From assembly GCA_907163375.1 (NCBI GenBank), contig CAJQUW010008745.1, positions 1-64,000 of the forward strand: DNA of 64,000 nucleotides, written 5' to 3'. The notes below the pieces were generated by a model. The model was not told the origin of the DNA, did not search any database, and was given only the letters and a program-made list of their open reading frames with translations. Of the stretch, positions 1,415-18,765 are shown piece after piece. A program made the position numbers and the translations under genes. Positions within the stretch are counted from its first letter, which is position 1. The number at the start of each line of letters is the position of its first letter. The stretch is from Prostheceraeus crozeri. Its lineage: Eukaryota; Platyhelminthes; Polycladida; Euryleptidae.

Positions 1415-4400
1415 GCATCAACTTCATCACCAACACCCTCCCTTCTCGAGGAAAGTTTAGAGTTGTTGAGTCAAGGTAGGTTGTAACAATACACTGAGAC
1501 TTTAACAGAGATGAAAGAATGATTTCTCTTTCAGGTGATACCAGTTCCATCTCGTGCGAGTACATCTAAACATTGTCGCGGGAATGTGACGATCGGCAAT
1601 GTGTGACTGTGGACGACATCTTCACGAGGAAGCGTGATCTCATCCGGACACATCAAGCGAGGTGTTTTGTAGGGACTAAGCCGGCATCAATCTCCGAAGG
1701 TAGGGATGATTCTGTTAACGATGTCTCCTTTTCTTGCGATTTATGCATTCAGTCTTTCGAGACACGTTTTGAACTATCTTCGCACAGACTTCAACATACA
1801 CACACGAACGATACCTACACCAACGGTACCTCCTCTATCCGACTCACTGAGGTGTCCATAAATAATTTAGTGAGGAACTACCAGATGGACTCCTCAGAAA
1901 CCATTGCTAACTTTGAGGAATGGTTTCATCAAAATTCATCATTGATAGAAGCGCTCTTCAACAATTTAGACAATTTTTGAATGAAGGCGCTCATCTATCT
2001 TAAAATAAAATATGTAAAAATCGACCACCATACTGGACAAATAATAGAGAGGTTTGAGTTTCACATACCCTCCTCTCCTGCAACCGAAGTTGTAGACTGT
2101 GAGTCTTGGATAAATTTTCATATCCAAGGGTTAAAATTAAATATAGATAAATTTAACGAGCGTGATAGTGGACTCGTTTTTGATGGTATTGAGACCGCTA
2201 TGATCAAAATCAGTTTATTAGGAAATCATAGCGGTCGAGGCTCCTTTAAACTTCCGAAAAATTTAAGAAATAAAGCAGCAGTCATTTCTGTAGATTGCGA
2301 ATCGCAATGTTTTAAGTATGCCGTCCTCTCCATTCTCCACTATAATGATGTGCAGAATAGTCGATACCGCAAGAGTAAGTATCAACAGTGGGAGAATGAA
2401 TTAAACTTCGATGACTGTAATAGTGACGATATGAAAATTAAAGATATAGAAAATTTGAAAAATTGAACAACATCAAAATAGTTCTCCATGTTTGGGAAAA
2501 GGGATTGAAGGGTGTGCGCTACAACTCGCGTTCGAGTTGTTATGAACGTACAGTAAACCTGTTATTAGTAAAACAGGATGATAGTGAGGAATGGCACTAC
2601 TGTGGTATTCCCAAAATCTCTCGCTTATACCACCACTTAGAAAACTCTAGTAGAGAGTTATATTACTGCGACAGATGTATTCGCCACTTTAGGAGGAAAA
2701 CTAAATTTGAAACTCATTACGAATGGTGTAAGCGAGGTAAACTGCAAATGGAGCGCATGCCCAAAGATAAGGAGTTTTCATATAGAGAGAATGGTGATGA
2801 ACTAAGTCCTCTTCGTGTCATCTATGCTGACATCGAATGTTATATCGATGATAACATCCATCGACCAGCAGCCATTTCCTGCTATGAAGTATGGCATGAT
2901 CACTTTAGGGGTAGGCAAAATAAAATGCGCGTCTGGCAAGGTGAGGATTGTATTTACCAATTCCTACAATTCCTCGAACAGGCTGTAAAATTTCAACAAA
3001 AACATGATGGTGAACTCTATCGCAGATCATTGCATATGACAGCAGATGATCAAGCAAAATTTGATAGTTGCAACGTTTTGCCCCAAATGTAGGAAAACAT
3101 TTGACGATGATAAGATTAAGAAAGTGCGCGACCATGATCACATCACTGCTAAATTTAGAAAACGCACTCTGTTCAAAATGTAATTTTTCGCTGAGGATGA
3201 AGCGGCGTACATTACCCGTCATTTTCCACAATTTCAAGGGCTACGACAGCCATATGATAATAAAAGGAGGTTTAGGTCAAATGAAAGAGTGGAAGCTTGA
3301 TGTAATAGCGCAAACGAGAGAGAAGTTTATGGCCATGACAGCAAAAGTGCCTGTCGATAAAACTAAAGAAAATAAGACGGTCTATTTTGATATAAAATTT
3401 TTAGATTCCTACCAATTTATGACTGCATCACTGGCCTCTCTCGTGCAAAATCTAAAGTCTCTTCCACTAACACAAAATCTTAAGAAACAATACCCAAATC
3501 TAACCGATGAAGTCATCACACGGAAAGGAGTCTTTCCATATGCATATTTTGATGCGATTAGTAAACTCGGCGAGACTTCTCTTCCGCCCATAGATAAATT
3601 TAAAAATGATTTGACCGGCGCAGAATGTAAGACCGAAGATTATGATCATGCACAAGATGCATGGATAAAATTTGACTGCCATACATTTGGTGAATATATG
3701 ATTGCCTACCTTAAGTTAGATGTATTTTTGCTGGCTGATGTATTTCAGGAGTTTCGACGAGTGGCATTAGAAGAAGATAAGTTAGATCCCGTCCACTTTG
3801 TCAGTCTACCAGCCATGTCATTTAAGTCTGCTTTTAAAATGACTGGTGAGACCATTCATCTCTTACAAGATCCAGAGATGTATAATTTATTTGAGCGAGG
3901 AATTCGCGGTGGTCTCACATTTGTAAATAAACATAGGTTAAAATCTGAAACAGTAGGTAATGATCATACCCATCTGAAGTATTATGCCAAAATAATTTGT
4001 ATGGTAGTTCATTATCCAAACCGCTACCTCACTCTGAGTTTAGCTGGTTAGATGATAGTGATATTCAACATTTCTCCAACCCTTCTAACATACTAGCAAT
4101 TCCAGATGAAGGTGATTGGGGATATTATTTTGAGATAGATCTAATCTATCCAAATAATATTAAACATAAAACCGTAGATTTTCCACTCGCACCCGAATCA
4201 GGTGAAGTGAGCAAAGATATGTTTTCCGACTTTATGAAACAATTTCATAAAGATTTAGAATCATGTGGACAACCCGACTATAAGCCTTGCCGCAAACTTT
4301 TGCTCACTCAATATGATAAAGAAAACTATCTAGTCCACTTTAGCATCTTAAAATTTTATTTAGAAATGGGCATGATTTTAAAAAGAGTTCACCGCATTAT

Positions 4401-5334
4401 TAAATTTAGACAGAAAGCCTTCCTCAAGCCATATATTGATAGCAACAGCCAGAAACGTGCACTAGCCCAAAATAACTTTGAAAAAGATTTCTATAAATAT
4501 AAGAACAACAGTCTATTTGGTAAGACGATGGAGGATGTTAGAAAGCGCGTAAACTACAAACTAGTTAATGATGATCAAAAGTATCACAAATTGACCTCAT
4601 CACCTCTATTCATCGATAGAGACATAATCGATGAGGATCTTGTAGGTATTAAAATGATAAAATCTGAAGTTGAGTTGTGCAAACCCATCTATATTGGTCA
4701 AGCTGTTCTAGATTACTCCAAGCTTGAAATGTATCAACTCTTCTATAAAATACTAAAACCGTGTCCTCTCGTAAAAGAGGTTCGTTTGTTGGGTGGTGAT
4801 ACAGATAGTTTCTTTTTAGGTATTACCACTCAAAAAGATTTAAATTTCAATGAAGTAGGAAAATCTTTAGAAAGATATTTTGATACATCAAATTATCCTG
4901 CTGATCATCCACTCTACTCCATCAAAAATAAGGCAAAACTTGGCTGCTTTAAGGATGAGACAGCAGGGAAGGAAATAGATGAAATGATTCTCCTCCGTCC
5001 AAAAATGTATTCTATGAAATTAAAGGATAGCGACGATAGTATTAAGCGTGCTAAAGGCATATCAAGATCATTGGTCTCTAACATGAAACATAAGAATTTC
5101 AGGAAAGCCTATAGAAATAAAAATATAACGTTTGTCAATATGACAATCTTAAAATCTAAGTCGCATGAGATCAAAACTCATACTTTTAGGAAACGGGCGC
5201 TTTCAGCATGGGAGGATAAGAGGTGCTGGTTAGAACACAACATATCTCTTCCACATGGACATCCTGACACAAACATACCACCACCCAAAAGAATTAAACT
5301 CACACTACCACATTCAGGAGACGTCTTAGCATAA
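1345..5334 (+). pseudogene. polB: Protein-primed family B DNA polymerase of the element, inactivated
   Basis: Replicative polymerase of Polintons. Visible parts in order: ATG exon, exon 2 (1415-1475), probable intron 1476-1534, a C2H2 finger (about 1735-1800), the N-terminal domain (1981-2460), Exo I with the Asp-x-Glu pair (about 2821-2845), Exo II (about 3217-3260), Exo III YLKLD (about 3709-3725), motif B with NNSLFGKT (about 4503-4530) and motif C GGDTDS (about 4792-4809). Breaks: in-frame TAA 1567-1569, TGA 1978-1980, and frame changes near 2455-2463, 3075-3085, 3165-3180 and 3985-3995. The last falls in motif A, where the catalytic aspartate position reads tyrosine. With so many lesions the product cannot be an active full-length polymerase. 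Family identity is certain; exact lesion points are approximate. Confidence 0.9.
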
Positions 5335-5640: not shown

Positions 5641-7161
5641 TCACTTTGTTTTCCGAAACACTAACGTTATGAGGGATTTAGTATCTTTCACATGGATGCA
5701 CTCTTGTAAACCATTGGTAATTTTGATAGCAATAGAGGGTATAGTTTGTTTGACGACGGGATGATAGAAAATAGATTCAAACATCTTCTCGACTATTCCA
5801 TATGAAGCGTCTTTATCATGAATGAAATCACGTAAAATGTATTCTTTTTTCTCACCAACAGAAATAGGTAGAATCAAATCACTTTGAATGTAAAGGTGCT
5901 GTTCATGTTTATCAAGTGTCATTGGTGTTTCTATACCAATCGTATGCGCAGCAGCAAACACAGTTTGTAGCATTGAAAAACCAAAGAGTTTTTTCAAATT
6001 TTTACTCAATTGACATTGAATGTCATCACCCAGTTTCAGAACAACGCGTTGATTTTCAATTGAAAACGAAATGTGGTGTGTCTTTACATCATATTTACTT
6101 TTCATCACATGCTTCAACTTCTGTTGTATATAAGGATTTACTACATGAATGAAGCTTTCAACTGTATGATATAGACGCGGCATTATATTGATAGCAACTT
6201 TAGATTCTTCATAAGACTGGTAAATTTTCTTGATGCGATCGCCATAGATGTCCACCCACCATTCATCATTAACTGAATCAGCTTTAGTGTGATATTCATG
6301 AGAAGCATACACCACACCGCTTCCAATAATAGGTGTATAATGTCTTACAAAATGACGCAAGGTTGGAGAGAAATAAACTGTAAGTTTGTCATTATATTTC
6401 TGAATAACCAACTTATTTTTGTCCGCCATAATTTTCTCTCCATACTTCTTACCCACAGTCTCATTCCATCGTTTTACTAACTCAATAAGTGATAAAGGTT
6501 GAACACCACGCTTTTTCAAAATGATGCGTTCTTCGCATTCTACAACATCTTCATCAAATATTTTAAATCTATAATGAAATTTGTTGATTCGATTTGAATA
6601 AACTTTTCTAACATTTGCAGTAGCAATTGACGTTAGATGTAGTCCATGACCAAAACCGAGATGCGGATAGAATTCACTATCCAACCTCAGCGTAAGACCT
6701 TTAGTAAAAGAATGAAAGCGGAGGAACTGTCTCCCACTCCAATGATAGATAGTAAACTCATAAGCTTTCTGATTTTTATTCTTCATGATGGAAGTATTAC
6801 CACTGTTGAATGCCTTAATAATTTTCTCATTCCCAAATGGCTCATAAGAATCTGATTTTATCTGAATCCATTCATAGTTCCACTTTCCATCTGATGTTAA
6901 ATTGTATGGGAACTGGAATGCATTATTCATCGTTATTCCATCATGGGTGCGAGGAGTCAATATCATTTCTTCCAAATCATTCACATTCTGAATATTGCTA
7001 TCATAGCAAATACTAGAAACGCCAACCTCCCATTCACCTTCTAAATGCAGTGGGCGATTTAATTCTACTCGATAGTCTGATGGTTTATTTTTGGGAAATT
7101 TATTCATAGAAGCATTACTGGGCAAGTAGATTAGAAACGAGTCCTTATTTTCACTTTCCAT
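5641..7161 (-). CDS. Polinton virion-type protein, paralogue 1
   Basis: A 506-residue protein (ATG at 7161; an alternative ATG lies at 7191). The N-terminus carries the motif LPSNASMNKFPKNKPSDYRV followed by a GEWEVGVSSICY segment, which I know from large uncharacterised proteins of animal Polintons that begin with SNAS and continue L.G.WEVGL..I.Y. It is paralogous to the next gene (7201-8598) over its full length. In such elements it sits among capsid genes, so a structural role (minor capsid, penton or fibre) is likely but inferred. No signal peptide or membrane segment. An ATGCAAAC motif lies 32 nt upstream of the chosen start and overlaps the stop of the upstream gene, which supports the 7161 start. 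Confidence 0.75.
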   Translation of the reverse strand: MESENKDSFLIYLPSNASMNKFPKNKPSDYRVELNRPLHLEGEWEVGVSSICYDSNIQNVNDLEEMILTPRTHDGITMNNAFQFPYNLTSDGKWNYEWIQIKSDSYEPFGNEKIIKAFNSGNTSIMKNKNQKAYEFTIYHWSGRQFLRFHSFTKGLTLRLDSEFYPHLGFGHGLHLTSIATANVRKVYSNRINKFHYRFKIFDEDVVECEERIILKKRGVQPLSLIELVKRWNETVGKKYGEKIMADKNKLVIQKYNDKLTVYFSPTLRHFVRHYTPIIGSGVVYASHEYHTKADSVNDEWWVDIYGDRIKKIYQSYEESKVAINIMPRLYHTVESFIHVVNPYIQQKLKHVMKSKYDVKTHHISFSIENQRVVLKLGDDIQCQLSKNLKKLFGFSMLQTVFAAAHTIGIETPMTLDKHEQHLYIQSDLILPISVGEKKEYILRDFIHDKDASYGIVEKMFESIFYHPVVKQTIPSIAIKITNGLQECIHVKDTKSLITLVFRKTK

Positions 7162-7193
7162 ATTATTCACATTGGAAAAATATATTAGCATAC

Positions 7194-7201
7194 GTTTGCA
7201 T
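7194..7201 (-). promoter_or_regulatory. ATGCAAA motif upstream of 7161 gene
   Basis: ATGCAAAC on the minus strand, 32 nt before the start codon and overlapping the preceding stop codon. Confidence 0.4.
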
Positions 7202-8598
7202 TAACTCTTCATTCGGAAATGGAGTGTGATACTTGTCACAGCATCTTTATGAAAAGGAATCAACGCACCAGCATCGTCATAAATGGCAATATCAATTTGT
7301 GGGATGTAGTTTGATTTCAGCTTTGTATAATGCACTTTCTTGAAAGTATGCTCAGATAAAATACTGCAGCTCTTTGGCTGGTATGGTATCATTGCTAGCA
7401 ATGGAGCTTCAACATCTCCCACACGTACATCTTCACCAATATTGGAATATATCTGAAAATAGTTAATACGACGCGATAGCGACATGTCTGCGCTAGCTTT
7501 GGTTACAGTACCACTTTTAAAGATATTTTGGTCAAAACCCAAAATGTCCATTAGAGTTTTATCCATAATTAGTTCAATACCTTTTCCACTTATAGTGAGA
7601 GACAAAGTACCTTCTTTTTCAGAAAATGAAATATGTTGCTCATTAATCACTTCATTTAAATAATCTACAACCAATTTAACCGAAGTAATAATGCGAGGCA
7701 TCAACACTCTTGTTTCATGTAAGAAACCACCAAAAGGCTCTACACACTTTCTGTATAAAGATACGGCCCATTCTGTATCAAATTGATTTGGCCTTTCACA
7801 TGGTAAATGTTGCATATCAGATTTTCCATGAACAGCTGCAGAACGATGTCGTAAGAACTGATGAAAATCTTTTGAACAAACTAATACTAGATCATCATCA
7901 TTTAATTTGCTTATTGCAATATGATTAGATGATTTGATATAAGTCAATGTTGCCACTTGTTTACCATCAACTCGAAGGAGATAATTAAATTTCTTCAATA
8001 ATGTTTCAGGAGTCATGTTTGTCTTTCTTGGCTTAATCACAATCTTCTTCACCAACGTCTTCTCATTTCTTGGAATAAGATCTACATAATAAGCTTCCTC
8101 TCGATATATTAACTGTTTATGACCACTTATGTGGTAATTAACGTTAAAATTATCATAGCTTGTTAAGGCGCTAGCGAGGTAGCCTAAATCATTTCTTAAA
8201 CTTGGACTTAAACCAACAATCCAATCTTTCTCAACTACATGATGTACATAATTATAATCATCATTGTGCGGAGTAAATTGGACAATATGTTTACACGCTT
8301 TATTCAAGAAATCATATATAAACTTTTTACATGATAAGAGATCTTTCTTTGACCACTGTGGAATGTATACTCGGCACCCCTTTTCACATTGATAAGCAGC
8401 TGTACGCCTCATATTAATAGTCATCACCTCATGATCAAAAGTATAGACACAGTTGCTATAAACAAGTTGAGTGACACCCACTTCCCAATTCCCATTTAGC
8501 TGTTGTGCATGATCAATGGGAGTAGAAAAGAGTGCGGCTCGATTACTAGTAAATCTCTTTGTAGCCGCATTGCTAAGCAAAATATGATAAAACGACAT
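7201..8598 (-). CDS. Polinton virion-type protein, paralogue 2
   Basis: A 465-residue protein starting at the ATG at 8598; the open frame continues a few codons upstream only through a TTG. The start MSFYHILLSNAATKRFTSN and the segment NGNWEVGVTQLVY match the SNA..F / G.WEVG..x.Y pattern of its downstream paralogue, and conservation continues along the chain. It belongs to the same Polinton structural-type family; the role is inferred from neighbours (capsid, protease, ATPase) and not from a known fold. The gene is intact. It is divergent from the + strand cassette that starts at 8634, with only 35 nt between start codons. Confidence 0.73.
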   Translation of the reverse strand: MSFYHILLSNAATKRFTSNRAALFSTPIDHAQQLNGNWEVGVTQLVYSNCVYTFDHEVMTINMRRTAAYQCEKGCRVYIPQWSKKDLLSCKKFIYDFLNKACKHIVQFTPHNDDYNYVHHVVEKDWIVGLSPSLRNDLGYLASALTSYDNFNVNYHISGHKQLIYREEAYYVDLIPRNEKTLVKKIVIKPRKTNMTPETLLKKFNYLLRVDGKQVATLTYIKSSNHIAISKLNDDDLVLVCSKDFHQFLRHRSAAVHGKSDMQHLPCERPNQFDTEWAVSLYRKCVEPFGGFLHETRVLMPRIITSVKLVVDYLNEVINEQHISFSEKEGTLSLTISGKGIELIMDKTLMDILGFDQNIFKSGTVTKASADMSLSRRINYFQIYSNIGEDVRVGDVEAPLLAMIPYQPKSCSILSEHTFKKVHYTKLKSNYIPQIDIAIYDDAGALIPFHKDAVTSITLHFRMKS

Positions 8599-8633
8599 TT
8601 TTATATTGCTAATCTGCAACTTTGCATAACATC
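8599..8633. promoter_or_regulatory. Very short divergent intergenic region
   Basis: The 35 nt between divergent start codons at 8598 (-) and 8634 (+) hold ATGCAAAG on the minus strand (8620-8627), 21 nt before the minus-strand ATG, and an AT-rich TATATTG stretch. It must serve as promoter for at least the minus-strand gene. Confidence 0.45.
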
Positions 8634-8990
8634 ATGAAGACTTGGATTTTGGACTCTCTACAATATATCAGAGTTGATCGTGATGGAAACGTACATTTCA
8701 AAAATTCTCATGGTCATACATCAAGAGGTATTACATTAACATGGCGACAATTTGTCAACCTCAATGATATCATGAGGGATTTGGAATATTTTGAAACATT
8801 AAGATTCATCTCCTTGGGTGATCAAGTTTGGCTTCAACATTACAGAAATGAAATTCAAATCTACCATTCTCATTCCGCAAACTGTTTCTCATTTCGCAAA
8901 TACAATTGGGAGAAGTATAGAAGATACATACATCGCTCCATCATGACATTTATTCGTCGTGAGTTCATCGCCCTACTATGCAAATCTTAA
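8634..8990 (+). CDS. Small protein of a tandem pair, PC4-like appearance
   Basis: 118 residues from the ATG at 8634; upstream codons are open only through a TTG. It aligns along its length with the first about 108 residues of the next gene (shared LDSLQ, NV.FK, IM.DL.YF, WEKY.R..HRSI). Within the protein, the stretch around VHFKNSHGHTSRGITLTWRQF and the later stretch around IQIYHS...FSFRKYNWEKY look like two divergent repeats of strand-turn-strand-helix. The pattern strand, basic Gly, ITLT, Trp-containing helix recalls the PC4/Sub1 single-strand-binding fold, but this is only a resemblance by eye. The gene lies just before the TBP-like gene, so a role in transcription or DNA binding is a reasonable guess. 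Confidence 0.5.
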   Translation: MKTWILDSLQYIRVDRDGNVHFKNSHGHTSRGITLTWRQFVNLNDIMRDLEYFETLRFISLGDQVWLQHYRNEIQIYHSHSANCFSFRKYNWEKYRRYIHRSIMTFIRREFIALLCKS

Positions 8991-9012: not shown

Positions 9013-9663
9013 ATGAGTTGGAAATTAGATTCCCTACAACGTATTGAAACGGATCATGATCGAAACGTCTATTTCAAAGATTCAACTGGAAATGTGAGAA
9101 GAGAGTTTGCTTTATCTTATCGTCATTTTCAATCTCTACATCATATCATGAAGGACTTGAAATACTTCTATATGAAAAGACATTCACGTATTGGAAATCG
9201 CATCTGGCTGCGCGTCAACAATCGGCGAATTCAACTCTATCATTCCCAACTTCATACTAACTTCACATTTCATCAAGGTAGTTGGGAAAAGTATAAAAGG
9301 AAGGTACATCGCTCAATTTACTCATTCTTTCATCATGAAGCGCCATCGCTACACCATCGTCAACATTCTCCGTCGCTTCAGACTCTACACCAAAATCGAT
9401 CTCACAACATTACGCCAACAGCTTCCAAACAGCAAGTATTACCCGGGCCGTCCTCAAATGTTAGTGGTGAAGATGAACAATTCACGGAATCTTCAACTCT
9501 TCCCAAATGGGACTGTACAGATTCTCGGCGCCCTTTCTCATTCATCGGCGCAGTCAATGCGCTTAGAGCTACAAAGACTACTACGTCGGATATGGAAGAG
9601 GGAGAGGTGTGTGATGTCGAATCTGACTGTGGACAATATGGTGATCTCTACTCAATTGAGTGA
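9013..9663 (+). CDS. Second copy of the tandem pair, with overprinted tail
   Basis: 216 residues from ATG at 9013, 22 nt after the stop of its paralogue. Residues 1 to about 108 are paralogous to the 8634-8990 product. The tail (about 109-216) is polar and low in hydrophobics, with Ser/Thr/Gln-rich and acidic stretches, and has no counterpart in the paralogue. That tail lies entirely over the TBP-like gene (9335 onward) in a different frame. Either the protein really ends in a disordered overprinted tail, or the original stop has been lost. The N-terminal half is well supported by paralogy; the tail is uncertain. The PC4-like idea applies equally here. Confidence 0.55.
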   Translation: MSWKLDSLQRIETDHDRNVYFKDSTGNVRREFALSYRHFQSLHHIMKDLKYFYMKRHSRIGNRIWLRVNNRRIQLYHSQLHTNFTFHQGSWEKYKRKVHRSIYSFFHHEAPSLHHRQHSPSLQTLHQNRSHNITPTASKQQVLPGPSSNVSGEDEQFTESSTLPKWDCTDSRRPFSFIGAVNALRATKTTTSDMEEGEVCDVESDCGQYGDLYSIE

Positions 9664-9880
9664 CAGTCTATCATTTTTGAAGATTCGTACCAGCAGTTAC
9701 AGTTTGTGTTATGAACCCGAACTTTTTCCTGCAGCTCTCATTAGTTGTTGGTTGCCTGTGCATGTGGCAATCTTTCATAATAGTAAAGTGATCATTACTG
9801 GACTAAAATCTCATGAACAAGCAAATATGATCCTAGACTATCTCATTGAGTATGTACGTACCCAGCGGATTGTAAAATAA
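9335..9880 (+). CDS. TATA-binding-protein-like factor
   Basis: A 181-residue protein from ATG 9335, the size of a bare TBP core (about 180). Two repeats are visible, residues about 6-86 and 97-177, each with the TBP order: IVN/NMV strand, helix, YxPxxFP or YYPGRP turn, hydrophobic strand, F..(G/S)K strand, TG turn, C-terminal helix. Residues 126-132 are YEPELFP, the hallmark of TBP repeat 2, followed by VAIFHNSKVIITG. Of the four DNA-intercalating phenylalanines, three are present (F56, F131, F147); the first is replaced by proline (P40). No acidic N-terminal region. The open frame extends upstream to 9191, but the homology starts at this ATG. It overlaps the preceding gene by 329 nt in another frame. 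TBP is not among the usual Polinton genes I know of. Confidence 0.85.
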   Translation: MKRHRYTIVNILRRFRLYTKIDLTTLRQQLPNSKYYPGRPQMLVVKMNNSRNLQLFPNGTVQILGALSHSSAQSMRLELQRLLRRIWKRERCVMSNLTVDNMVISTQLSDSLSFLKIRTSSYSLCYEPELFPAALISCWLPVHVAIFHNSKVIITGLKSHEQANMILDYLIEYVRTQRIVK

Positions 9881-9912
9881 AAAACAATTTTTTCCAACAT
9901 GATGTTTTTATT
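9876..9912. terminator. Convergent poly(A) signals overlapping two stop codons
   Basis: AATAAA 9876-9881 on + contains the TAA of the TBP-like gene (9878-9880). TTTATT 9907-9912 gives AATAAA on minus and overlaps the protease TAA (9908-9910). The arrangement is identical to that at 569-582. Confidence 0.6.
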
Positions 9913-10369
9913 TCAAATCATGATAGAACTTACAAATCATTTTTTCATTAGAGGATGGATTACATGAAAAGTTTTGAATAATAGATGCAAATCGAGATAC
10001 ATGTAAACGTTTTAAGATGAAGTACAGTACAAAAGCACCACACGTTGATGAAAGTGGATGTTGTAGTATGCGTTCATTTCGCTGATATTGACGCGTATGT
10101 TTTCTCAACCACTGCTGTGTTGGTATATTTGGAGGTTGAGCAAGAGAGTCAAATAGTTCACCACGTCGGTCTTCTCCAATAAAGATCGCTTTCCAATGCT
10201 CACCGCCTAAATTCTGTGAATGAGTGTTTAGCACAATAAAGATGGGATAGTGATTTACTGCAGGTGGTAAGGTATCGAGTGAATAGACATTATCGAAAGC
10301 TTTCAACGTCGCTTCGTCTGCATTACGCTGCACTTTAGTCTTAATATCGTCAGCAGTCAACCAACTCAT
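9908..10369 (-). CDS. Adenain-like (C5/Ulp1 clan) maturation protease
   Basis: 153 residues. Cysteine protease that in adenoviruses and Polintons cleaves capsid precursor proteins. The catalytic set is visible: His58 in GGEHWKAIFIG, Asp74 in ELFDS, Gln103, and the nucleophile Cys110 in SSTCGAFVLYF; the Gln-to-Cys spacing of 7 equals that of adenovirus protease. The gene is intact and somewhat shorter than adenain (about 200). Its ATG overlaps the TAA of the capsid gene (TAATG), so the two are probably expressed from one transcript. Confidence 0.92.
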   Translation of the reverse strand: MSWLTADDIKTKVQRNADEATLKAFDNVYSLDTLPPAVNHYPIFIVLNTHSQNLGGEHWKAIFIGEDRRGELFDSLAQPPNIPTQQWLRKHTRQYQRNERILQHPLSSTCGAFVLYFILKRLHVSRFASIIQNFSCNPSSNEKMICKFYHDLK

Positions 10370-11646
10370 TAACGATTATACTGAAGAATCACGTCACGAT
10401 ACTTTGTAATTTCAATATTTGAATCGAAGACTGCATAAATTAATACATTGATCGTCTCAGGTAGTGTTCTTTTGAACGTCAAATCCAAACGAATATTATG
10501 AGGCACGTTCGCTTGACGATAGGGTGCACTAATATCGCTGTCAGCAGTTAAATCAAATGCATAAATAGTATATCCACTCTTAAACTCTTTCATAGTCAGT
10601 CCGTTGGTGTCATCCGTATTGTAAAAGCCAAAAACATCCATAAAATCAACATAACTGCGCATAAATTGATCTGAAGCAAAATCTGGTTTGTAGGGTGGAC
10701 CAGGATGACTCACACCATTTACACGTAAAGCAATTTCACTTAACTGATTGTGTTTAAAATTGAAAGGATTCTTCTTTATATTACCATTAAATGCATCATT
10801 TTCAACCATTGCCACCATGAGGAGCTTCGGTGCTTCCGATGGAAAGAGGCCATCTTTCATGAAACTCTTTTGATCTTTCGGAATTGTAAAGGTGAGAAGC
10901 TTTGTATGCTGAATGGGGTAAATGGCATTTTGGCGGTTAAGGCCTTCAGCATGCCCTCTAATGACACTTGGATTCGGTACTACTCGACGAATGTAAAGTG
11001 CAATATCTTCCACATGAATTCTAAAATTGTCAACTTTAGCAAATGCATTCAGCGCAAATTCAGGCTTATTCAATGTCAGCTTGAGTCGCATGCTGGTATT
11101 ACACAGTAAAAACTTTGACTGTCTAAAGAAGTCTAAATTCAGCGGACCATATAGCTGACATACTCTACTATCTTTAATCATAGCAGATCGCTTTACAAAG
11201 CCACTGTTTGTTTCAACATCAAATTTTCCTGCTTCATCTCTGTACCATCCCATGGCTTCCATATGACTTTTTTGTGCTGCTGGATGAAACTGTGATACAT
11301 GATTGAAATATGATTTATAGGGATAATCGCTTTGACCACCTTCCACTTGCTGCTCTCCAATCGTTAGAGAAACATCACGAAGTAATGTAGTCAATGGTAA
11401 ATTGTTCAGTCCAACTTTATGTGCATCGTCAATAGCAGTTCCATCTGCTTGCTGAATTCTAAACCTCAAATCAAGCATCGCATAACTCAAATCTATGTAG
11501 TCATCACTACCACCAGGAATAACAAATTCAATGGGGCCAGCATTCTCAGCTGTTCGAGGATGATAATCTACAATACTTGAACTAAGAATATCTGTCTGTA
11601 TGGCTTGTTGATCGAACAAACAAAAACCGGAAGTTTTACACTCCAT
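10369..11646 (-). CDS. Major capsid protein of the Polinton type
   Basis: 425 residues, intact. It belongs to the F54H12.2-like family of animal Polintons, regarded as the double-jelly-roll major capsid protein. Family features seen: an N-terminal FDQQAIQTDILSSSIVDYHP, then GPIEFVIPGGSDDYIDLSYAMLDLRFRI, a middle QSDYPYKSYFN segment and the C-terminal strand-rich RLDLTFKRTLPETINVLIYAVF. It starts 2 nt after the stop of the basic protein gene (11649) and overlaps the protease start, forming a tight capsid, protease unit. No separate ATGCAAA motif precedes it, which fits co-transcription with the upstream gene. Confidence 0.88.
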   Translation of the reverse strand: MECKTSGFCLFDQQAIQTDILSSSIVDYHPRTAENAGPIEFVIPGGSDDYIDLSYAMLDLRFRIQQADGTAIDDAHKVGLNNLPLTTLLRDVSLTIGEQQVEGGQSDYPYKSYFNHVSQFHPAAQKSHMEAMGWYRDEAGKFDVETNSGFVKRSAMIKDSRVCQLYGPLNLDFFRQSKFLLCNTSMRLKLTLNKPEFALNAFAKVDNFRIHVEDIALYIRRVVPNPSVIRGHAEGLNRQNAIYPIQHTKLLTFTIPKDQKSFMKDGLFPSEAPKLLMVAMVENDAFNGNIKKNPFNFKHNQLSEIALRVNGVSHPGPPYKPDFASDQFMRSYVDFMDVFGFYNTDDTNGLTMKEFKSGYTIYAFDLTADSDISAPYRQANVPHNIRLDLTFKRTLPETINVLIYAVFDSNIEITKYRDVILQYNR

Positions 11647-11648
11647 GA

Positions 11649-12104
11649 TTAGAAGTTATAGCAGCGTCGTCGTTTAGCGCCTGATGAATGATTAGAGCCT
11701 CTGCGACGTTTGCGTGAATGCCTTTTGACTGAAGATCGCACCTTACCAGCTCCGCGATGTTTCCTCCTTCCTTTATTCATTCGTTTAGGTGATTTCTTTC
11801 CTTGAGTAACACCAGCAATGGTCTGCTTCAATGTTTTTAAACCGCGTTCCTTCCCACGATTCAACAAACTGCTCTTGAAACTTCTACCTCTGGAAAGATC
11901 ACTAGCAACATCACCAGCAAAGCCAACGGCATTACTTAAAACATTTCGTTTTAAAGATCTACCGACATTGGATATGAGAGGTGCTACAACAGATTTCAGT
12001 GCACCAAGTATGCTACCTCCACGTTGGCGGCGAGCACCGATGTAAATTTGTCCTCCGCCACTTACATAGGAGGGTCGTGAATAAAATGAGGCAGTTGGAT
12101 TCAT
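11649..12104 (-). CDS. Basic Gly-rich minor virion-type protein
   Basis: 151 residues. N-terminal Tyr/Gly-rich segment (SGGGQIYIGARRQRGGS), an amphipathic hydrophobic helix region (about 30-75, LGALKSVVAPLISNVGRSL), then a strongly basic C-terminus (about 105-150, Lys/Arg-rich). Proteins with this build are standard in Polintons next to the capsid gene and are compared with adenovirus core or membrane-lytic proteins (pVI/pX). The GG sites in the N-terminus resemble protease cleavage sites of the adenain type, but I did not map them. It is preceded by ATGCAAAG 30 nt upstream and is the first gene of the apparent unit basic protein, capsid, protease. Confidence 0.72.
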   Translation of the reverse strand: MNPTASFYSRPSYVSGGGQIYIGARRQRGGSILGALKSVVAPLISNVGRSLKRNVLSNAVGFAGDVASDLSRGRSFKSSLLNRGKERGLKTLKQTIAGVTQGKKSPKRMNKGRRKHRGAGKVRSSVKRHSRKRRRGSNHSSGAKRRRCYNF

Positions 12105-12134: not shown

Positions 12135-12142
12135 CTTTGCAT
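12135..12142 (-). promoter_or_regulatory. ATGCAAA motif upstream of 12104 gene
   Basis: ATGCAAAG on the minus strand in the 41-nt gap after the integrase stop, 30 nt before the start codon. Confidence 0.42.
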
Positions 12143-12145
12143 GAA

Positions 12146-13366
12146 TCACTGTCGATCACTTAGATGAAAGATGTCGGCACGACGCATCCAAGAGTTCATA
12201 CTTGAAGGATAACCAGCCCATTTAACAAGACACCATTCTTCACCTTGCCGTTTTTTACATCGAATGATTTTCTCTACCAAATATGTTTCACTTTCAGTGA
12301 CTACCTCAATCTCATCGCGGTAAAAGCTACCCTCAATTTCTTCATTATCGTAATCTTTCAACTTGTAGGTGGTCGGAGAGTCTTTTTGATTAATCCTTGA
12401 TACTGTAAATACCTCCTCTGTCCAATTCGGAAGGTACCCTTTAGCAAAAACACTTTTCACTTTTGAGATACGAACTTTATCGCCAATTTTCACATCACTT
12501 TTCACATGAGTGCGTTTACGTTGGAATGATTCGCGCACTTTATCTACATTGTCAGCATTTACATCTACTGGTCTGAGTCCAATAGAACGATGGATAGAGT
12601 GATTGTAGGCATGGAGTGTATCTTGTAGAACCTTTGTCCAATTTTGTGTCAAGTTGGCAGTAAAATGTCGCCACAAGCGATTTTTTAATGTGCGATTAAA
12701 ACGTTCAACGAGTGCAGCTTTATAAGCGCTCTTTACACTAAACAACTCAATGTCATGCCTCTCAAATAATCTTGTCACATGCTGATTTTCAAACTCTTTT
12801 CCTTGATCACTCTGAATTCTTTTTGGAATGCGACCTTCTCGAAAAATTGTTTGGAATGCTTTTGCTACTCCTTTCCCTTCTTTAGTTTTTAAAGGTTGAG
12901 CCCACGCATAACGCGAGAAAATATCAATGACGGTTAAAATAAAATTATTGCCCGAGTTATGTTTTGAAATGGAGGCAACATCGCACAAATCTGCTTGCCA
13001 CTGTTCATCGATGTCATGAACAATATAATGGCGGGTGCGGTACTTCTTTTTCGCTTGTTTGTGGAGTGTATAGGTAGCCTGACCCTTTAACCATCGTTTC
13101 ACTTGTGATTGTGGAAGACCACTCGCTTTTGATAATTTCTTGATAGATGCAAATCCTGCCGGATGTTTTACATCATAATAGATTGACTTCAAACGTTCAG
13201 TCGATGACGGCTGACTCTTTTTCCTCCTTCTCATCTTTTTTCTTTCTTGCCTTTCTACATTTACAACAACTGCAGCATTTAGCTTTAGCGGTTTTGCGAT
13301 CGTGTTCACATTGCTTAGGGGTTTCATTATGAGAGCTGGCGCAGCAAGTGCAAGTGACAACGACAT
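12146..13366 (-). CDS. int: Retroviral-type integrase with chromodomain
   Basis: 406 residues. Catalyses strand-transfer insertion of the element. After an N-terminal basic stretch (40-52) comes the Polinton-type helix-turn-helix region (58-100, HPAGFASIKKLSKASG...VKRWL), then the DDE core: Asp126 (QADLCDV), Asp187 (IQSDQGKEF) and Glu221 (ALVERFNRTLK). A chromodomain-like module ends the protein (about 360-400: VEKIIRCKKR...CLVKWAGYPSSMNSW), with the aromatic residues expected to hold methyl-lysine. All catalytic residues are present. The first about 55 residues are not typical of the family and overlap a Cys-rich frame (13197-13412), so the true N-terminus may be different. Confidence 0.93.
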   Translation of the reverse strand: MSLSLALAAPALIMKPLSNVNTIAKPLKLNAAVVVNVERQERKKMRRRKKSQPSSTERLKSIYYDVKHPAGFASIKKLSKASGLPQSQVKRWLKGQATYTLHKQAKKKYRTRHYIVHDIDEQWQADLCDVASISKHNSGNNFILTVIDIFSRYAWAQPLKTKEGKGVAKAFQTIFREGRIPKRIQSDQGKEFENQHVTRLFERHDIELFSVKSAYKAALVERFNRTLKNRLWRHFTANLTQNWTKVLQDTLHAYNHSIHRSIGLRPVDVNADNVDKVRESFQRKRTHVKSDVKIGDKVRISKVKSVFAKGYLPNWTEEVFTVSRINQKDSPTTYKLKDYDNEEIEGSFYRDEIEVVTESETYLVEKIIRCKKRQGEEWCLVKWAGYPSSMNSWMRRADIFHLSDRQ

Positions 13367-13413: not shown

Positions 13414-14106
13414 TTAATAGTCTGAGAACATGTATTTCCTAGGAGGAGCTGTTTTACGTTTTCCTTTTACCAGTTTTAGTGGCGATGTAGATCTACGTCG
13501 AGTTCTTCCTCTTGTTTGCTTAGTGAGTGTGGGAGGGGATGTAGCAGGTGACGTCTTAAACCAATTTGTTGGCATTTTCATCGCCTGAAGCATTGGAGTA
13601 GTAGCCACTGTTGAATCAAGTTCTTTCAATGTCTCATTATTTAAAGCAAATTTTGGCACATTATGCTTTTTCAATAGTTTAAGAAAGTATGACCAACCAG
13701 GTGGAACATAGCCCTGACGGCGCTTTCTACGTGTCGCATACTGAATCAAGTCTTCATAACGTGAAGCATCAATCACTTTATTTTCATCTGTAATGATTTC
13801 TCCTCTATCATTTACATTGAGATGGGGCTCAATACTATTGAAAAGAGATATGGCATGTGCGCGAGATGCTAAAGGTGTAGCAGTCGATACAGAGTCACGC
13901 ATCTTATTCTTCAAGTTTTTCAATTGCTCAACAGTTTCCGATTGTAATAATACAGCACGATGTGGATCTTTGATGTGAACATTTTGCTGATAATCTATTT
14001 CTTTCCTATACATTTGATTTGCAAGAGGTTGCTTTACTTGCTGCATGGCAGTCACTTGTACATATTCATCCTGAGGAATAACAATCATGCGAGAATAAGA
14101 ACTCAT
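13414..14106 (-). CDS. Conserved Polinton protein of unknown role (MIVIPQ family)
   Basis: 230 residues from ATG 14106 (an internal ATG at 14088 gives the family-typical start MIVIPQDEYVQ). I recognise the type from animal Polintons: an N-terminal I(V)PQ.EY.Q motif, a helical middle with QSETVEQLKNLKNKMRD, a small globular part with YVPPGWSYFLKLLK, and a basic Ser/Thr/Arg-rich tail. Usually adjacent to the ATPase and thought to be virion-associated; the function is not established. The 3' end of the ATPase gene overlaps its start by 4 nt, suggesting one transcript. Confidence 0.65.
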   Translation of the reverse strand: MSSYSRMIVIPQDEYVQVTAMQQVKQPLANQMYRKEIDYQQNVHIKDPHRAVLLQSETVEQLKNLKNKMRDSVSTATPLASRAHAISLFNSIEPHLNVNDRGEIITDENKVIDASRYEDLIQYATRRKRRQGYVPPGWSYFLKLLKKHNVPKFALNNETLKELDSTVATTPMLQAMKMPTNWFKTSPATSPPTLTKQTRGRTRRRSTSPLKLVKGKRKTAPPRKYMFSDY

Positions 14107-14720
14107 AGTTTGTAGATAATCATGGGAGTTTTCAAAATATCACTTCGAAATCTAAATTCTTCCGGACACTCTTGCGTAAAGTCAATGAATAAGTAACCGT
14201 ATGGTTTTTCAGTAGCTGCTTGAAAAATTTCAATTAAGGCTTTTGATCCTCTGGGTGCAACTTGTCGCGCTAAAATTTCAAATTGACTTTTATCTCGCGG
14301 ATTCTTGAAAATAGCATAATAGTGTGTATTCAGGTTTCGTGTACGAGCTTCTTTTCCATCAGGAAACAAATTTTGTGTAATATAGATGATAAAACACCTT
14401 TTATGGTGTGCTGCGCGAGTGAACATATCTGTAACATCTTTTGAATTCTTACTTTCTTTTAATAAATCATCCAATACAACAACATCATTAGACTGAAGTT
14501 TATCCACTGGAATAATTCCTTCATGTCGAATAAAGTTGCGACTTTGCAATTCCTGAAACAGCGACGGTTGATAAATACCATAACACCAAATCACTCGATT
14601 GATAGGTTCCTTAAACAACTCCCTTCTTTTATCCAATAAATTCAGCGTGAAAACAGTTTTACCTGCATGAGATGGACCTGATACAGTCAGAACTTTATCA
14701 CATTGAAGTCTGAAATCCAT
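14103..14720 (-). CDS. FtsK/HerA-type genome-packaging ATPase
   Basis: 205 residues from ATG 14720. The open frame goes on upstream to 14768 but only through a TTG, and the family starts near MDFRLQ. Walker A GPSHAGKT (15-22), Walker B VVVLDD (80-85), and a sensor-like YITQN segment further on. In Polintons this ATPase pumps DNA into the capsid. Length is typical. The ATGCAAAT motif at 14742-14749 lies between the upstream stop (14752) and this start, supporting the shorter start. Confidence 0.9.
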   Translation of the reverse strand: MDFRLQCDKVLTVSGPSHAGKTVFTLNLLDKRRELFKEPINRVIWCYGIYQPSLFQELQSRNFIRHEGIIPVDKLQSNDVVVLDDLLKESKNSKDVTDMFTRAAHHKRCFIIYITQNLFPDGKEARTRNLNTHYYAIFKNPRDKSQFEILARQVAPRGSKALIEIFQAATEKPYGYLFIDFTQECPEEFRFRSDILKTPMIIYKL

Positions 14721-14741
14721 TTTATTACTTTGAGACTCAAC

Positions 14742-14749
14742 ATTTGCAT
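14742..14749 (-). promoter_or_regulatory. ATGCAAA motif upstream of the ATPase gene
   Basis: A perfect octamer ATGCAAAT, 21 nt before the ATPase start and 3 nt beyond the preceding stop codon. Confidence 0.42.
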
Positions 14750-14751
14750 AA

Positions 14752-15108
14752 TTAACGCTTAGAGCCAAAGATATTTCCCAATAGGTTGCCCACGGCAGGA
14801 GCTATCATTGGAAGTATTGCTGAAAGGAAACCGCCCTTTTGTGTTAGAGTTTTCCTCTTTCTTTGAAGGGCGACTTTAGGATTGGAGATGAAACGCAATT
14901 TCGTAGCATATCGCTTAAGTAACTTTCGTTGTTTTGGTGCTAATTTCTTCGTCCTCAACTTCCTCACATGAGAAATAATTTCACAAATGAATTTATCGTT
15001 AGCATGTCGTATAGCATTGTATCGCTGATTTGCTTTCATTCGTCGGAGAGCTTGAATGGCTGAAGAAAACTTTTGACTTTTACGTTTCGTCATTTTACGT
15101 TTCGCCAT
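14752..15108 (-). CDS. Small basic protein with hydrophobic C-terminus
   Basis: 118 residues: Lys/Arg-rich over the first 90, then GGFLSAILPMIAPAVGNLLG, a Gly-bounded hydrophobic helix, and a short basic end. Animal Polintons regularly carry such a protein, and the build resembles adenoviral core and membrane-active peptides that are freed by the viral protease after Gly-Gly. A virion or membrane-disruption role is an inference from build and position next to the ATPase. Intact. Preceded by an octamer motif 38 nt upstream. Confidence 0.7.
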   Translation of the reverse strand: MAKRKMTKRKSQKFSSAIQALRRMKANQRYNAIRHANDKFICEIISHVRKLRTKKLAPKQRKLLKRYATKLRFISNPKVALQRKRKTLTQKGGFLSAILPMIAPAVGNLLGNIFGSKR

Positions 15109-15146: not shown

Positions 15147-15154
15147 ATTTGCAT
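15147..15154 (-). promoter_or_regulatory. ATGCAAA motif upstream of 15108 gene
   Basis: ATGCAAAT in the 51-nt gap between the RING gene stop and the next start, 38 nt before the start codon. Confidence 0.42.
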
Positions 15155-15159
15155 AGGTA

Positions 15160-15483
15160 CTAACTATTGCGACATAAGTGACAATCGAAATGAGCAATGT
15201 CACAGTGGTTACATTGGCAAAGTTGAATGCAATTACGTATGAAACAGCGTTGACAAAAAGCATGCTTACATCTCTTGAAGATGCGCTTTTCATTTCCATC
15301 CTTTCGCTTACATACATCGCAACACATAGTTTCACCGTTACTGATGTCTATAGCAAGTCTTTTTGAAGATATGAATTTGCTAGCCTTTTCTAAATAATAG
15401 ACGCATGTACAGAAGGAATATACTTCGAGAGTGAGCAGACATAGCTCGAAAACCAGTTGTGCTACAATCAAGTACCACTGCAT
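15160..15483 (-). CDS. Membrane-anchored RING-finger protein
   Basis: 107 residues from ATG 15483. An N-terminal hydrophobic helix (about 3-30, LIVAQLVFELCLLTL) could be a signal anchor. Residues 54-104 form a RING-like zinc module: C55, C58, C72, H74, C77, C80, then CQCNHC and CHLC. RING proteins usually act as E3 ubiquitin ligases; that activity is not shown here. The start lies 3 nt after the stop of the polymerase-N-domain gene, so the two probably share a transcript. A second RING-like frame occurs at 16567-16767. Possible roles are modification of host factors or late membrane events; both are guesses. Confidence 0.6.
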   Translation of the reverse strand: MQWYLIVAQLVFELCLLTLEVYSFCTCVYYLEKASKFISSKRLAIDISNGETMCCDVCKRKDGNEKRIFKRCKHAFCQRCFIRNCIQLCQCNHCDIAHFDCHLCRNS

Positions 15484-15485
15484 TT

Positions 15486-15896
15486 TCAATTTTTCTTTAT
15501 GGAAAGTTGAATGTGAATATCTGAAATCGCTTCAATCACTAGACTGCTACCATGATGGTTAAATGCGTTAAGACGTTCAGCAATTTTTATCATATGTCTT
15601 TTAAAAAATTCTTCGGGGTGATCTACCACTTCCATTGAATAAGAAGCAAAATGGAAAGAGCGACTTTCCACCTCTTCCTTTCCAAAATGACTAAACTTAA
15701 TTTTCGCAACTAATCGCGCCATGACAATGCTATCAGAGAATGTATTCATTAACTCTAGAAATAGAGTGCTAGCATCATCTACCACTGCTTCGATGTCGGT
15801 CTCATCTTTATGAAAATTTATCACATAATCTTGAACAGCTCCTTTTAAACTTTGCCTATGAAAACGTAATGTTCCGCAGTCGTTTGAGAAAGACAT
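15486..15896 (-). CDS. Stand-alone homologue of the polymerase N-terminal domain
   Basis: 136 residues. The segment from about 58 to 132 (VAKIKFSHFGKEEVESRSF...FNHHGSSLVIEAISDIHIQL) lines up with the N-terminal region of the element's own polymerase (1984-2230), sharing the strand, hydrophobic and F..F.s....v..he.W/F...I..l...I..fn..gS..v...i....I.. pattern. In many animal Polintons this domain occurs only fused to PolB. A free copy may be a replication partner or the product of gene duplication. Function unknown. The ATGCAATG motif lies 23 nt upstream. It is the first gene of a two-gene unit with the RING protein. Confidence 0.55.
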   Translation of the reverse strand: MSFSNDCGTLRFHRQSLKGAVQDYVINFHKDETDIEAVVDDASTLFLELMNTFSDSIVMARLVAKIKFSHFGKEEVESRSFHFASYSMEVVDHPEEFFKRHMIKIAERLNAFNHHGSSLVIEAISDIHIQLSIKKN

Positions 15897-16767: not shown

Positions 16768-17502
16768 TCTTCTCCGACTTGCGCTTCGTACCACTGCTGT
16801 TAAGGATTTGATCAATTATGTCGTCCACGTTGGGTGGTTTCGGAATATATAAAATGGATTCCATATGCATGGAGAGAGAGGCTATTTTATTATCCTTGTG
16901 TCGACCATAATATAGCCCATTCACTTTGAAAAGGATATCCCAAGTACCTTCTCCGAGCTCATCACATCTGATGGGTATTGAATGATCTCCATCCTTCTTA
17001 TAGTAAGTACACCAATGTGATACCGGTAGGCAAATGTGATTACCATCCCAAATCTTTCTATAGGGAGTATCCTTGTCATCTCTCGCCTTCCACTCTTGAG
17101 CAAGAGGAGTAGGAATGTCCATATTTAATGTCACGTACTCCTCAATAATATCAAGTTGGTGGCGAATGTACGTACTCACGAGGATCAGTATGTAGTCCCC
17201 ATACTGATTGTGCATTATCTTGACATCCGTGGAAGGGAGCATTCCCGTTTGGAGTACTACGCTATGATCATCATAACGCAAGGCTTGTTTAAATTTACGC
17301 TGTAGCGGTGTAGGATTATGTACCTTGGATGTTTCTTCCACTGGCCTCAGTTGTAGATGATCTGACCGTAGCGAACCTTGTAACGTTTGACCGCCATTTT
17401 GTCCTACTAGTGCAGCAGATGGAGTAGATGCCTGAAAATGAAAAAAGATTGTATTAAGTTTACGTTCAAGGGAGGAGAGGGAGGGAAGTAGCGACTTACC
17501 AT
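16727..17502 (-). CDS. Right-end spliced early-type gene, function unknown
   Basis: CDS is ATG at 17502-17500, an intron 17499-17432 (GTAAGT ... TTTTCAG, 68 nt), then 17431-16727, giving 235 residues. Without the intron the frame has no ATG: the Met at 17341 would be a GTG. The protein starts Met-Ala-Ser-Thr-Pro, like the polymerase (Met-Ala-Ser-Thr-Ser). A globular middle contains GEGTWDILFKVNGLYYGRH and a Lys/Ser-rich basic tail ends it. I do not recognise the family; a single-strand DNA-binding OB-type fold is possible but unproven. Its position at the element end and a promoter like that of the polymerase suggest an early or replication role. Confidence 0.65.
17432..17502 (-). other. ATG-only first exon and 68-nt intron at the right end
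   Basis: Reading on the minus strand: ATG (17502-17500), donor GTAAGT (17499-17494), pyrimidine-rich body, acceptor TTTTCAG ending at 17432, next exon GCATCTACT. Same layout and nearly the same length as at 1345-1414, with little sequence identity between the two introns. Confidence 0.75.
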
Positions 17503-17600: not shown

Positions 17601-17648
17601 TATTTATAAAGAAATGCTTGATTCTCATTGGATGATGATCCTCATTGG
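17601..17648 (-). promoter_or_regulatory. Right-end promoter: CCAAT, CCAAT, TATA
   Basis: On the minus strand: CCAAT beginning at 17648 and at 17631, TATAAATA beginning at 17608. Steps are 17 and 23 nt, identical to the left-end promoter. Both CCAAT boxes are followed by GA. The start codon lies 106 nt downstream of TATA. Confidence 0.7.
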
Positions 17649-17662
17649 ACAATAACATCAAG

Positions 17663-18640
17663 CTGATTCCAAATCTGGTCTCTGTTTTCCAATCCGATGC
17701 TTCGTTTTGAAGCTAGAGCCCAAAACGTCCCAAATTCTAACTCTGTCGTTTTTCACCAATGTCCCAAAATCTTAAATGGCGTCTCACATCTAAACGAAGA
17801 CAGATAGGAACAAGCCGATTGTTTCACTGAATTTGTCTCACTCTTAGCTTTCAAACGAGCTATCGCACGACAAAATCCGTCCACTGGAAGCCAAAATCGA
17901 AGCAAGCTGTCCAGAGGGGGGGGGACGTCAGCCGAAAATTTTTTCTCTCCGATTTCGCTGGAAACATCCTTCCTAACCCAAAATTTCACGTAGATTCCGA
18001 ATCTGGCCTCCGTTTTCTCATCCGATGCTTCGTTTGGGCGCTACACACCAAAACATCCCAAATTCTAACTCTGTCGTTTTTTCGAAAAATGTTGAAAATT
18101 TTTTCTCTCCGATTGACTTGAAACTCACTATACAGATAAAGAATTTCACGCTGATTCCAAATCTGAAATCCGTTTTCCAATCCGATGCTTCGTTTTGAAG
18201 CTACAGCCCAAAACGTCCCAAATTCTAACTCTGTCGTTTTTCACCAATGTCCCAAAATCTTAAATGGCGTCTCACATCTAAACGAAGACAGATAGGAACA
18301 AGCCGATTCTTTCACTGAATTTGTCTCACTCTTAGCTTTCAAACGAGCTATCGCACGACAAAATCCGTCCACTAGAAGCCAAAATCGAAGCAAGCTGTCC
18401 AGAGGGGGGGGGGGACGTCAGCCGAAAATTTTTTCTCTCCGATTTCGCTGGAAACATCCTTCCTAACCCAAAATTTCACGTAGATTCCGAATCTGGCCTC
18501 CGTTTTCTCATCCGATGCTTCGTTTGGGCGCTACACACCAAAACGTCCCAAATTCTAACTCTGTTAAAATTTTGAAGAAAAATTTTTTCTCGCCAATTGC
18601 CTTGAAACTCACCCTACCGATGCAGAATTTTACGCTGAAT
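17663..18640. repeat. 488-bp dimeric satellite, two copies
   Basis: The unit starts ctgattccaaatct at 17663 and again at 18151. Each unit has two related halves of about 240 bp: both contain atccgatgcttcgttt and cccaaattctaactctgt. The unit also carries a run of 9-11 G after gtccaga. A third partial copy begins near 18630. The array begins only 15 bp beyond the outer CCAAT box of the element's right-end promoter. No gene. Confidence 0.85.
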
Positions 18641-18666
18641 CCGAATCTGGCAGCCATTTCACCATC

Positions 18667-18765
18667 CACGACAACCTAGACGGTCGCCCACGTCAACCTA
18701 GACGGTCGCCCACGTCAACCTAGGCGGTCGGCCACGTCAACCTAGGCGGTCGGTCACGTCAACCC
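18667..18765. repeat. 22-bp GC-rich minisatellite
   Basis: Four full and one partial copy of a unit cacgtcaacctagacggtcg (c/g)(c/t), starting at 18667, 18689, 18711, 18733 and 18755. The last base pairs vary between copies. Confidence 0.85.

Follow-up and report, generated by a model that had tools for sequence, protein, structure and literature searches.

A Polinton-type element of the flatworm Prostheceraeus crozeri encodes its own TATA-binding protein (TBP), at positions 9335..9880 on the plus strand of the window (the whole stretch of 64,000 nucleotides analyzed here). Few promoter-recognition factors of eukaryotes and archaea are as conserved as TBP. From the sequence analyses below, it appears close to certain that the protein is a TBP and that its gene belongs to the element. 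The protein is likely, we infer, to be the element's own promoter factor. As for its mode of action, we consider it probable, at about 0.58, that the element TBP directs host RNA polymerase II (Pol II) to late or element-specific promoters via a box, ATGCAAA, with host TBP starting the TBP gene itself.

The gene is a single uninterrupted frame. Translation of the plus frame agreed with the 181-residue product given in the first-pass annotation, in which it had been read as a TBP with two repeats. The Pfam profile PF00352 (TBP) matched the protein in two stretches, with an E-value of 7.6e-21 and a score of 74.2 bits (cut-off, 22.9 bits); both TBP repeats are therefore present. The AlphaFold model, calculated from an input of 61 sequences, had a pLDDT of 95.5 and a pTM of 0.85. 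When this model was compared with the PDB by Foldseek, ranks 1-44 were all TBPs or TBP-containing entries (best E-value, 2.9e-12), and the sequence identity of the element TBP to these 44 matches was 20-27%. Searches of the PDB sequences gave the same family: phmmer listed 35 entries for the element TBP, all TBPs or TBP fusions (best, 2.8e-14), and the 61-row profile also listed 35 (best, 9.8e-25). Profile search and fold prediction had been named beforehand as the analyses on which the identification would fall. A TBP match and a two-repeat saddle were both obtained, and the identity was further borne out by the conserved residues.

The conservation of individual residues was counted in an alignment of 61 rows, consisting of the element TBP and 60 relatives; the assignment of its positions to TBP and yeast numbering is our own assumption. 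The string YEPELFP, which had been noticed in repeat 2, sits at residues 126-132. Three of the four intercalating Phe residues are kept, as had been claimed: F56, F131 and F147, which are found in 61, 60 and 61 rows, respectively. The first is replaced by Pro40, and Pro occupies this position in 57 of the 58 rows that have a residue there. The pattern F..(G/S)K...TG, which had been ascribed to both repeats, holds for repeat 2 (FHNSKVIITG) and not for repeat 1 (FPNGTVQILG), which is without the Lys and has Leu for Thr. This Leu64, in place of the minor-groove Thr, is shared by 55 of the 61 rows, and T155 is kept in 60 of 61. Of the paired Asn residues, N101 is present in 61/61 rows and the Asn at position 10 in all 49 rows with a residue there. 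In the stirrup, which we take to contact TFIIB through the counterparts of yeast E186, E188 and L189, Y126 is kept in 56, E127 in 60, E129 in 61 and L130 in 54 of the 61 rows. Since the profile and the fold both place the protein among the TBPs, three of four intercalating Phe residues are a variant of the TBP family and give no ground for exclusion from it. The changes in repeat 1 (Phe to Pro and Thr to Leu) are likely to be the basis of an altered DNA preference. Taken together, the canonical half and the consistently altered half suggest a TBP that would be able to hold TFIIB and would prefer a different DNA site.

The element itself is, by its predicted type B DNA polymerase (PolB) and its predicted integrase with a chromodomain, a Polinton, in which protein priming of PolB is putative. 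The first part of PolB lies at 3068..4051 (plus strand; PF03175, E-value 1.2e-10). The second part, at 3997..5334 (plus strand), is in another frame in the window copy and has no Pfam match; it was assigned from its location and because it is homologous to sequence on the PolB side in other copies. The two parts appear in one frame at locus L023, a member of group 3 described below. A predicted open reading frame for a 516-aa protein follows on the minus strand (5641..7191), and next to it lies the gene for a 472-aa protein (7201..8619, minus strand; start used, ATG 8598), the N-terminus of which is related to the 516-aa protein. Beyond the TBP gene and convergent with it is a gene for an Ulp1/adenain-like protease (9908..10369, minus strand), whose matches to PF02902 (E-value 0.0013) and PF00770 (E-value 0.044) were both below cut-off. 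The putative major capsid protein of 425 aa (10369..11646, minus strand) has no Pfam match, and its recognition as a Polinton major capsid protein is our assumption. A basic protein of 151 aa, a putative virion protein (11649..12104, minus strand), heads the run of 151-aa, capsid and protease genes. The integrase (rve) with its chromodomain is encoded at 12146..13366 on the minus strand (E-values 1.2e-10 and 1.3e-6), and a putative packaging ATPase at 14103..14768 on the same strand (PF04665, A32; E-value 0.022, below cut-off). A small cysteine-rich protein, RING-like by eye, was noted at 15160-15489. No RNA polymerase gene was recognized among the element open reading frames scanned; transcription of the element must therefore depend on host Pol II.

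Upstream of TBP lie two small genes on the plus strand, OrfA (122 aa; 8622..8990; start used, ATG 8634) and OrfB (216 aa; 9013..9663), the latter overlapping the TBP gene in another frame. OrfA and OrfB are tandem paralogues, and the overlap of OrfB with TBP recurs in element groups 2 and 3. In a predicted model, the N-terminal part of OrfB weakly resembles PUR/Whirly domains; OrfB may thus be a nucleic-acid-binding partner of TBP.

Part of the predicted right terminal inverted repeat was located at 17763..17931. The matching left repeat, observed in copy L059, falls outside the contig, before its first position; the window copy is therefore truncated there. Between end stretches of copies L059 and L062, inverted matches of 95-97% were obtained, which point to terminal repeats. 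The element size estimated from copies is roughly 20 kb. Direct repeats at 17658-18667 and 1-533 (92% and 83% identical) correspond to both element ends, inside or adjoining the terminal repeats, and several contigs end there. Near both ends of the gene region an ATG is directly followed by GTAAGT (1344-1352 and 17494-17502), an arrangement that suggests spliced first exons of two inward transcripts.

The genome searched comprises 2.05 Gb in 14,165 contigs. Its cytochrome oxidase gene reads open for 612 codons with the invertebrate mitochondrial code, whereas with the vertebrate mitochondrial code the longest frame stays within 250. At least 150 matches to the protein were found, and 150/150 were scored as identical over 181 residues without stops; the number is a lower bound, as 11,886 candidates had passed the first look. 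In all 30 of the 3.5-kb stretches compared around identical TBP matches, agreement with the window was 99.1-100%. Copies so nearly identical indicate that amplification was very recent and that the amplified element carries TBP. We further inspected 25 element loci, comprising L004-L008, the best matches beyond the host genes, and L009-L028, picked from the 150 TBP-domain matches listed. Other Polinton genes were found in the same stretch as TBP at all 25. The proposal of a Polinton-type element with its own TBP is thus upheld by PolB and integrase in the element and by the Polinton genes adjoining TBP at every inspected locus. The observation also extends further than had first been described.

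These 25 loci fall into four sequence groups with three gene arrangements. Group 1 is window-like and contains 12 loci with 81-97% identity in TBP; in one of them, L021, an insertion of about 1.7 kb interrupts the TBP copy (L021:3406-5697). Group 2 contains three loci of about 42% identity, in which TBP is convergent with the protease and the capsid gene comes next, as in the window. In group 3, with nine loci at 41-45% (L024 in two pieces, 55 and 38%), TBP is convergent with PolB. Locus L009 stands alone at 40%; its TBP is convergent with the protease, but the genes for the 472- and 516-aa proteins share the strand of TBP. The host has a separate TBP gene of its own, split by introns, whose pieces L001 and L003 were found on a single contig; the first of them scored 256 bits against a PDB TBP. 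A second host gene, L002, was read as TRF2-like. Among the 150 TBP-domain matches listed in the genome, four rows represent these two host genes; nearly all listed matches therefore lie outside them, which is relevant to annotation. The gene at 9335..9880 codes for a diverged TBP and is a member of the element's own set of genes.

In the protein database, 60 relatives of the element TBP were found among 99 candidates, with identities of 34-81%; they are metagenomic and known as proteins alone. An identical protein at no fewer than 150 places in the genome, together with these relatives, indicates that the open reading frame at 9335-9880 is not due to chance. In a tree of 44 rows, the 39 element and metagenomic rows were split from the five cellular rows with support of 100/100. 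For the capsid protein, 494 database relatives with uninformative names were found among 2238 candidates. The smaller number for TBP may mean that TBP is present in only some Polintons or that it diverges faster. No TBP-bearing viral contigs were found in IMG/VR with the TBP (P0001), its alignment (A1), capsid, PolB or integrase as queries, and a tblastn search of the phage collection with P0001 found nothing. Contigs of the same size were considered as linkage of TBP to capsid (P0016/P0158, 7106; the OrfB relative P0065 and capsid P0075, 7709); this was rejected, since about one such coincidence would be expected among thousands of pairs by a rough estimate.

Selection was analyzed mainly between the window and L028, which are 81% identical, L028 having one in-frame stop. 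The dN/dS of TBP was 0.26 (0.20 in the overlap with OrfB and 0.32 in the rest), compared with 0.16 for the protease and 0.16 and 0.08 for pieces of the capsid gene. For OrfB it was 0.38 overall, 0.23 outside the overlap and 0.70 inside it. Between groups 2 and 3 the dN/dS of TBP was 0.24-0.43 at a dS of 1.0-1.6, which is near saturation. Values between copies within group 3 ranged from 0.31 to 1.09, as expected from decay of single copies after insertion. TBP is constrained, less tightly than capsid or protease.

Sequences of 150 bp before 18 gene starts were then read for promoter boxes, the starts having been chosen prior to any motif being seen. When both strands of the 16.4 kb between 1301 and 17700 are counted, the heptamer ATGCAAA is present eight times, and six of the eight occurrences lie in sense less than 70 bp before a gene start (six of the 18 starts), where 0.28 would be expected. 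On the plus strand it is found at 8978..8984, 35 bp before OrfB. The other five are on the minus strand, at 8621..8627 (29 bp before the 472-aa gene), 12136..12142 (38 bp before the 151-aa gene), 14743..14749 (29 bp before ATG 14720 of the ATPase gene), 15148..15154 (46 bp before the 118-aa gene) and 7195..7201. The last is 40 bp before ATG 7161, the second Met of the 516-aa gene, and 10 bp before its first ATG, 7191. The six distances (29, 29, 35, 38, 40 and 46 bp) would suit a core promoter whose leader is very short. Among 2000 random sets of positions, drawn without matching for base composition or intergenic location, none was as extreme as ATGCAAA (k=6 or k=7), and 35 matched the octamer TATGCAAA. 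The density of the heptamer is ordinary, with eight in 16.4 kb of the element versus 17 in the other 44 kb, and its placing alone is unusual. We hold the mechanism and the reading as a late box with reduced confidence, because the heptamer is no denser than usual and the choice of Met decides one of the six distances. A further caveat is that ATGCAAAT is similar to the POU octamer.

Comparison with other copies showed how far the box is kept. In L028, the four promoter copies of ATGCAAA that are covered keep 28/28 core bases, with 11 to 20 of 20 bases kept in the flanks, and the copy at 9985, off gene starts, keeps 5/7. At the site of the 516-aa gene, the flanks are as conserved as the core (19 and 20 of 20). 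In the parts of the elements covered, ATGCAAA was absent from L009, L063, L006, L008, L020, L023, L024 and L027, and was present but off the assigned starts in L004, L005, L007, L016, L017 and L018. Within this coverage, the window's lineage (the window and L028) is the only one that has the box at gene starts.

Within 100 bp of the 18 starts, TATAAA was found only before TBP (-43) and before the 472-aa gene (-7, too close), besides a box at the right end. The box before TBP, TATAAAAGG (9292..9300, plus strand), lies 43 bp upstream of the start codon, inside the OrfB codons for YKR. This box also codes for the conserved residues YKR of OrfB and may therefore be kept for the sake of that protein. 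Of the 14 copies tested (L027 left out), 11, from three of the four groups, have TATAAAA 43-47 bp upstream of the TBP start codon: at 43 bp in the window, L028 and 6/8 group-3 copies, and at 46-47 bp in 3/3 group-2 copies. It was missing in L016, L018 and L009 among these 14. The canonical TATA box at the right end, TATAAATA (17601..17608, minus strand), precedes the ATG at 17502-17500 that is followed by GTAAGT.

The placing of the promoter motifs lends indirect support to the suggestion that the element TBP acts at the element's own core promoters. These observations could be combined as follows. Host TBP would start the right-end transcript and the TBP gene at the canonical TATA boxes (17608, minus strand; 9292, plus strand). 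The element TBP would then bind ATGCAAA before the capsid run, the ATPase gene, the 118-, 472- and 516-aa genes and OrfB, and its kept YE-x-E-L stirrup would recruit host TFIIB and Pol II at these boxes. The outcome would be a late or element-specific class of promoters that host TBP serves poorly. A stronger form of this proposal, which we hold only tentatively and consider somewhat doubtful, is a self-contained core-promoter system, composed of a TBP with a re-tooled repeat 1 and a private late-gene box, TATGCAAA, and switched on by host TBP.

There are other possible interpretations of these results. The element TBP might serve host-type TATA boxes, thereby raising dosage or escaping TFIID and repressors, with some other factor using ATGCAAA. 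In agreement with this interpretation, neither repeat 2 nor the TFIIB-contact residues depart from the canonical form, a canonical TATA box precedes TBP and another is found at the right end, and in sister groups with TBP no ATGCAAA was seen at assigned gene starts. However, repeat 1 has lost one intercalating Phe and the minor-groove Thr family-wide, and TATAAA was found at just two of the 18 starts, in one of them too close; we consider this interpretation rather unlikely. It is also conceivable, with a low probability, that the protein is an inhibitor that sequesters host TFIIB or sits on promoters of the host and so lowers host transcription during replication of the element. The kept TFIIB-contact glutamates and the altered DNA-facing side of repeat 1 would suit such a role, but the conservation of three intercalating Phe residues and both paired Asn residues would be needless for a pure sponge, and the positioned box at gene starts would be left without explanation.

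Since cellular TBP also serves Pol III (the PDB matches include Pol III complexes), the protein might instead act with Pol III factors of the BRF type, or in replication or packaging, and not at Pol II promoters. GTAAGT, however, directly follows both terminal ATGs, a pattern seen in Pol II transcripts that are spliced, and neither a tRNA gene nor an Rfam family was detected in the 64-kb window; the probability of this interpretation seems very small. Finally, transposons can, as is generally known, acquire host genes, and stops occur in L028 and in several group-3 copies, so that one might regard the gene as a recently captured, functionless copy of host TBP. This is already contradicted, and we give it hardly any weight: the host TBP is intron-split and distant, the cellular rows separate at 100/100, the dN/dS is 0.26, and TBP is present in four element groups with relatives elsewhere at 34-81% identity.

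The preferred reading, in which the element TBP would direct host Pol II to its own promoters through ATGCAAA, can be compared with known systems. In the open-access literature searched, no report of TBP in a Polinton, Maverick or adintovirus was found. The accessible text of PMC4028283, PMC11071308, PMC11071296 and PMC8363768 makes no mention of TATA or, where this was asked, of TBP. The present element shares PolB, integrase, protease-like, ATPase-like and capsid-like genes and putative terminal inverted repeats with Polintons/Mavericks and adintoviruses, and differs from them in its TBP gene. New here is the positioning of ATGCAAA before six of the 18 gene starts of a TBP-bearing Polinton. 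With cellular TBPs and TBP-related factors the protein has in common the two-repeat saddle, the core length, the YEPELFP stirrup, three intercalating Phe residues and the paired Asn. It differs from cellular TBP in that Phe is replaced by Pro and Thr by Leu in repeat 1 throughout the family, its identity to the 44 PDB TBP matches is 20-27%, and it falls in a separate clade from the five cellular rows.

The nearest comparable mechanism is that of the TBP mimics of herpesviruses (KSHV ORF24 and EBV BcRF1), which, according to PMC4893493 and PMC12529657, also combine a nuclear DNA element, host Pol II and an encoded TBP-like protein. As described, late genes of beta- and gamma-herpesviruses have a TATT box that is used by the viral TBP mimic and on which host TBP is weak (PMC4893493). 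KSHV ORF24 is without the TFIIB-contact glutamates, named there as E184 and E188, and needs all four Phe residues (PMC12529657). In herpesviruses, as far as these texts describe, the variant box stands at late promoters, whereas in the present element a candidate variant box is found in one lineage. The present TBP also differs from ORF24, as described there, in that it is a free 181-aa core with normal profile scores, has the TFIIB glutamates and has Pro as its first Phe. The five partner proteins of ORF24 named in that text have no recognized counterpart in the present element. TBPs are also on record for mirusviruses (PMC10132985, PMC12768974), Megavirus chilensis (PMC11464507) and CpV-BQ1 (PMC12085832), and TBP is described as sporadic in putative mirusvirus-derived elements of Cymbomonas (PMC10675990). 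These are, by description, likewise TBPs from eukaryotic DNA viruses. The genomes of mirusviruses and giant viruses run to hundreds of kb, and some encode an RNA polymerase or a TFIIB of their own, whereas the present one is an animal element of roughly 20 kb.

A constrained TBP in a just-amplified animal transposon-virus provides a compact test case for the joint change of a TBP and its DNA box, and may help to explain how early and late expression could be ordered in Polintons. If the stronger form of the proposal is true, a very small element would re-specify the starts of host Pol II, having evolved apart from the TATT-box system of herpesviruses, and protein and box would possibly co-change lineage by lineage.

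Several features elsewhere in the window are also worth recording. A transposase (matches to PF01359 and PF13358) and a hAT-type remnant (PF05699, E-value 3e-5) lie outside the Polinton, at 25255-26166 and 28695-29819. A tandem array of 52-bp units with 16.5 copies occupies 27703-28554, and an inverted repeat (about 310 bp; identity, 94.5%) is found at 47334-48111.
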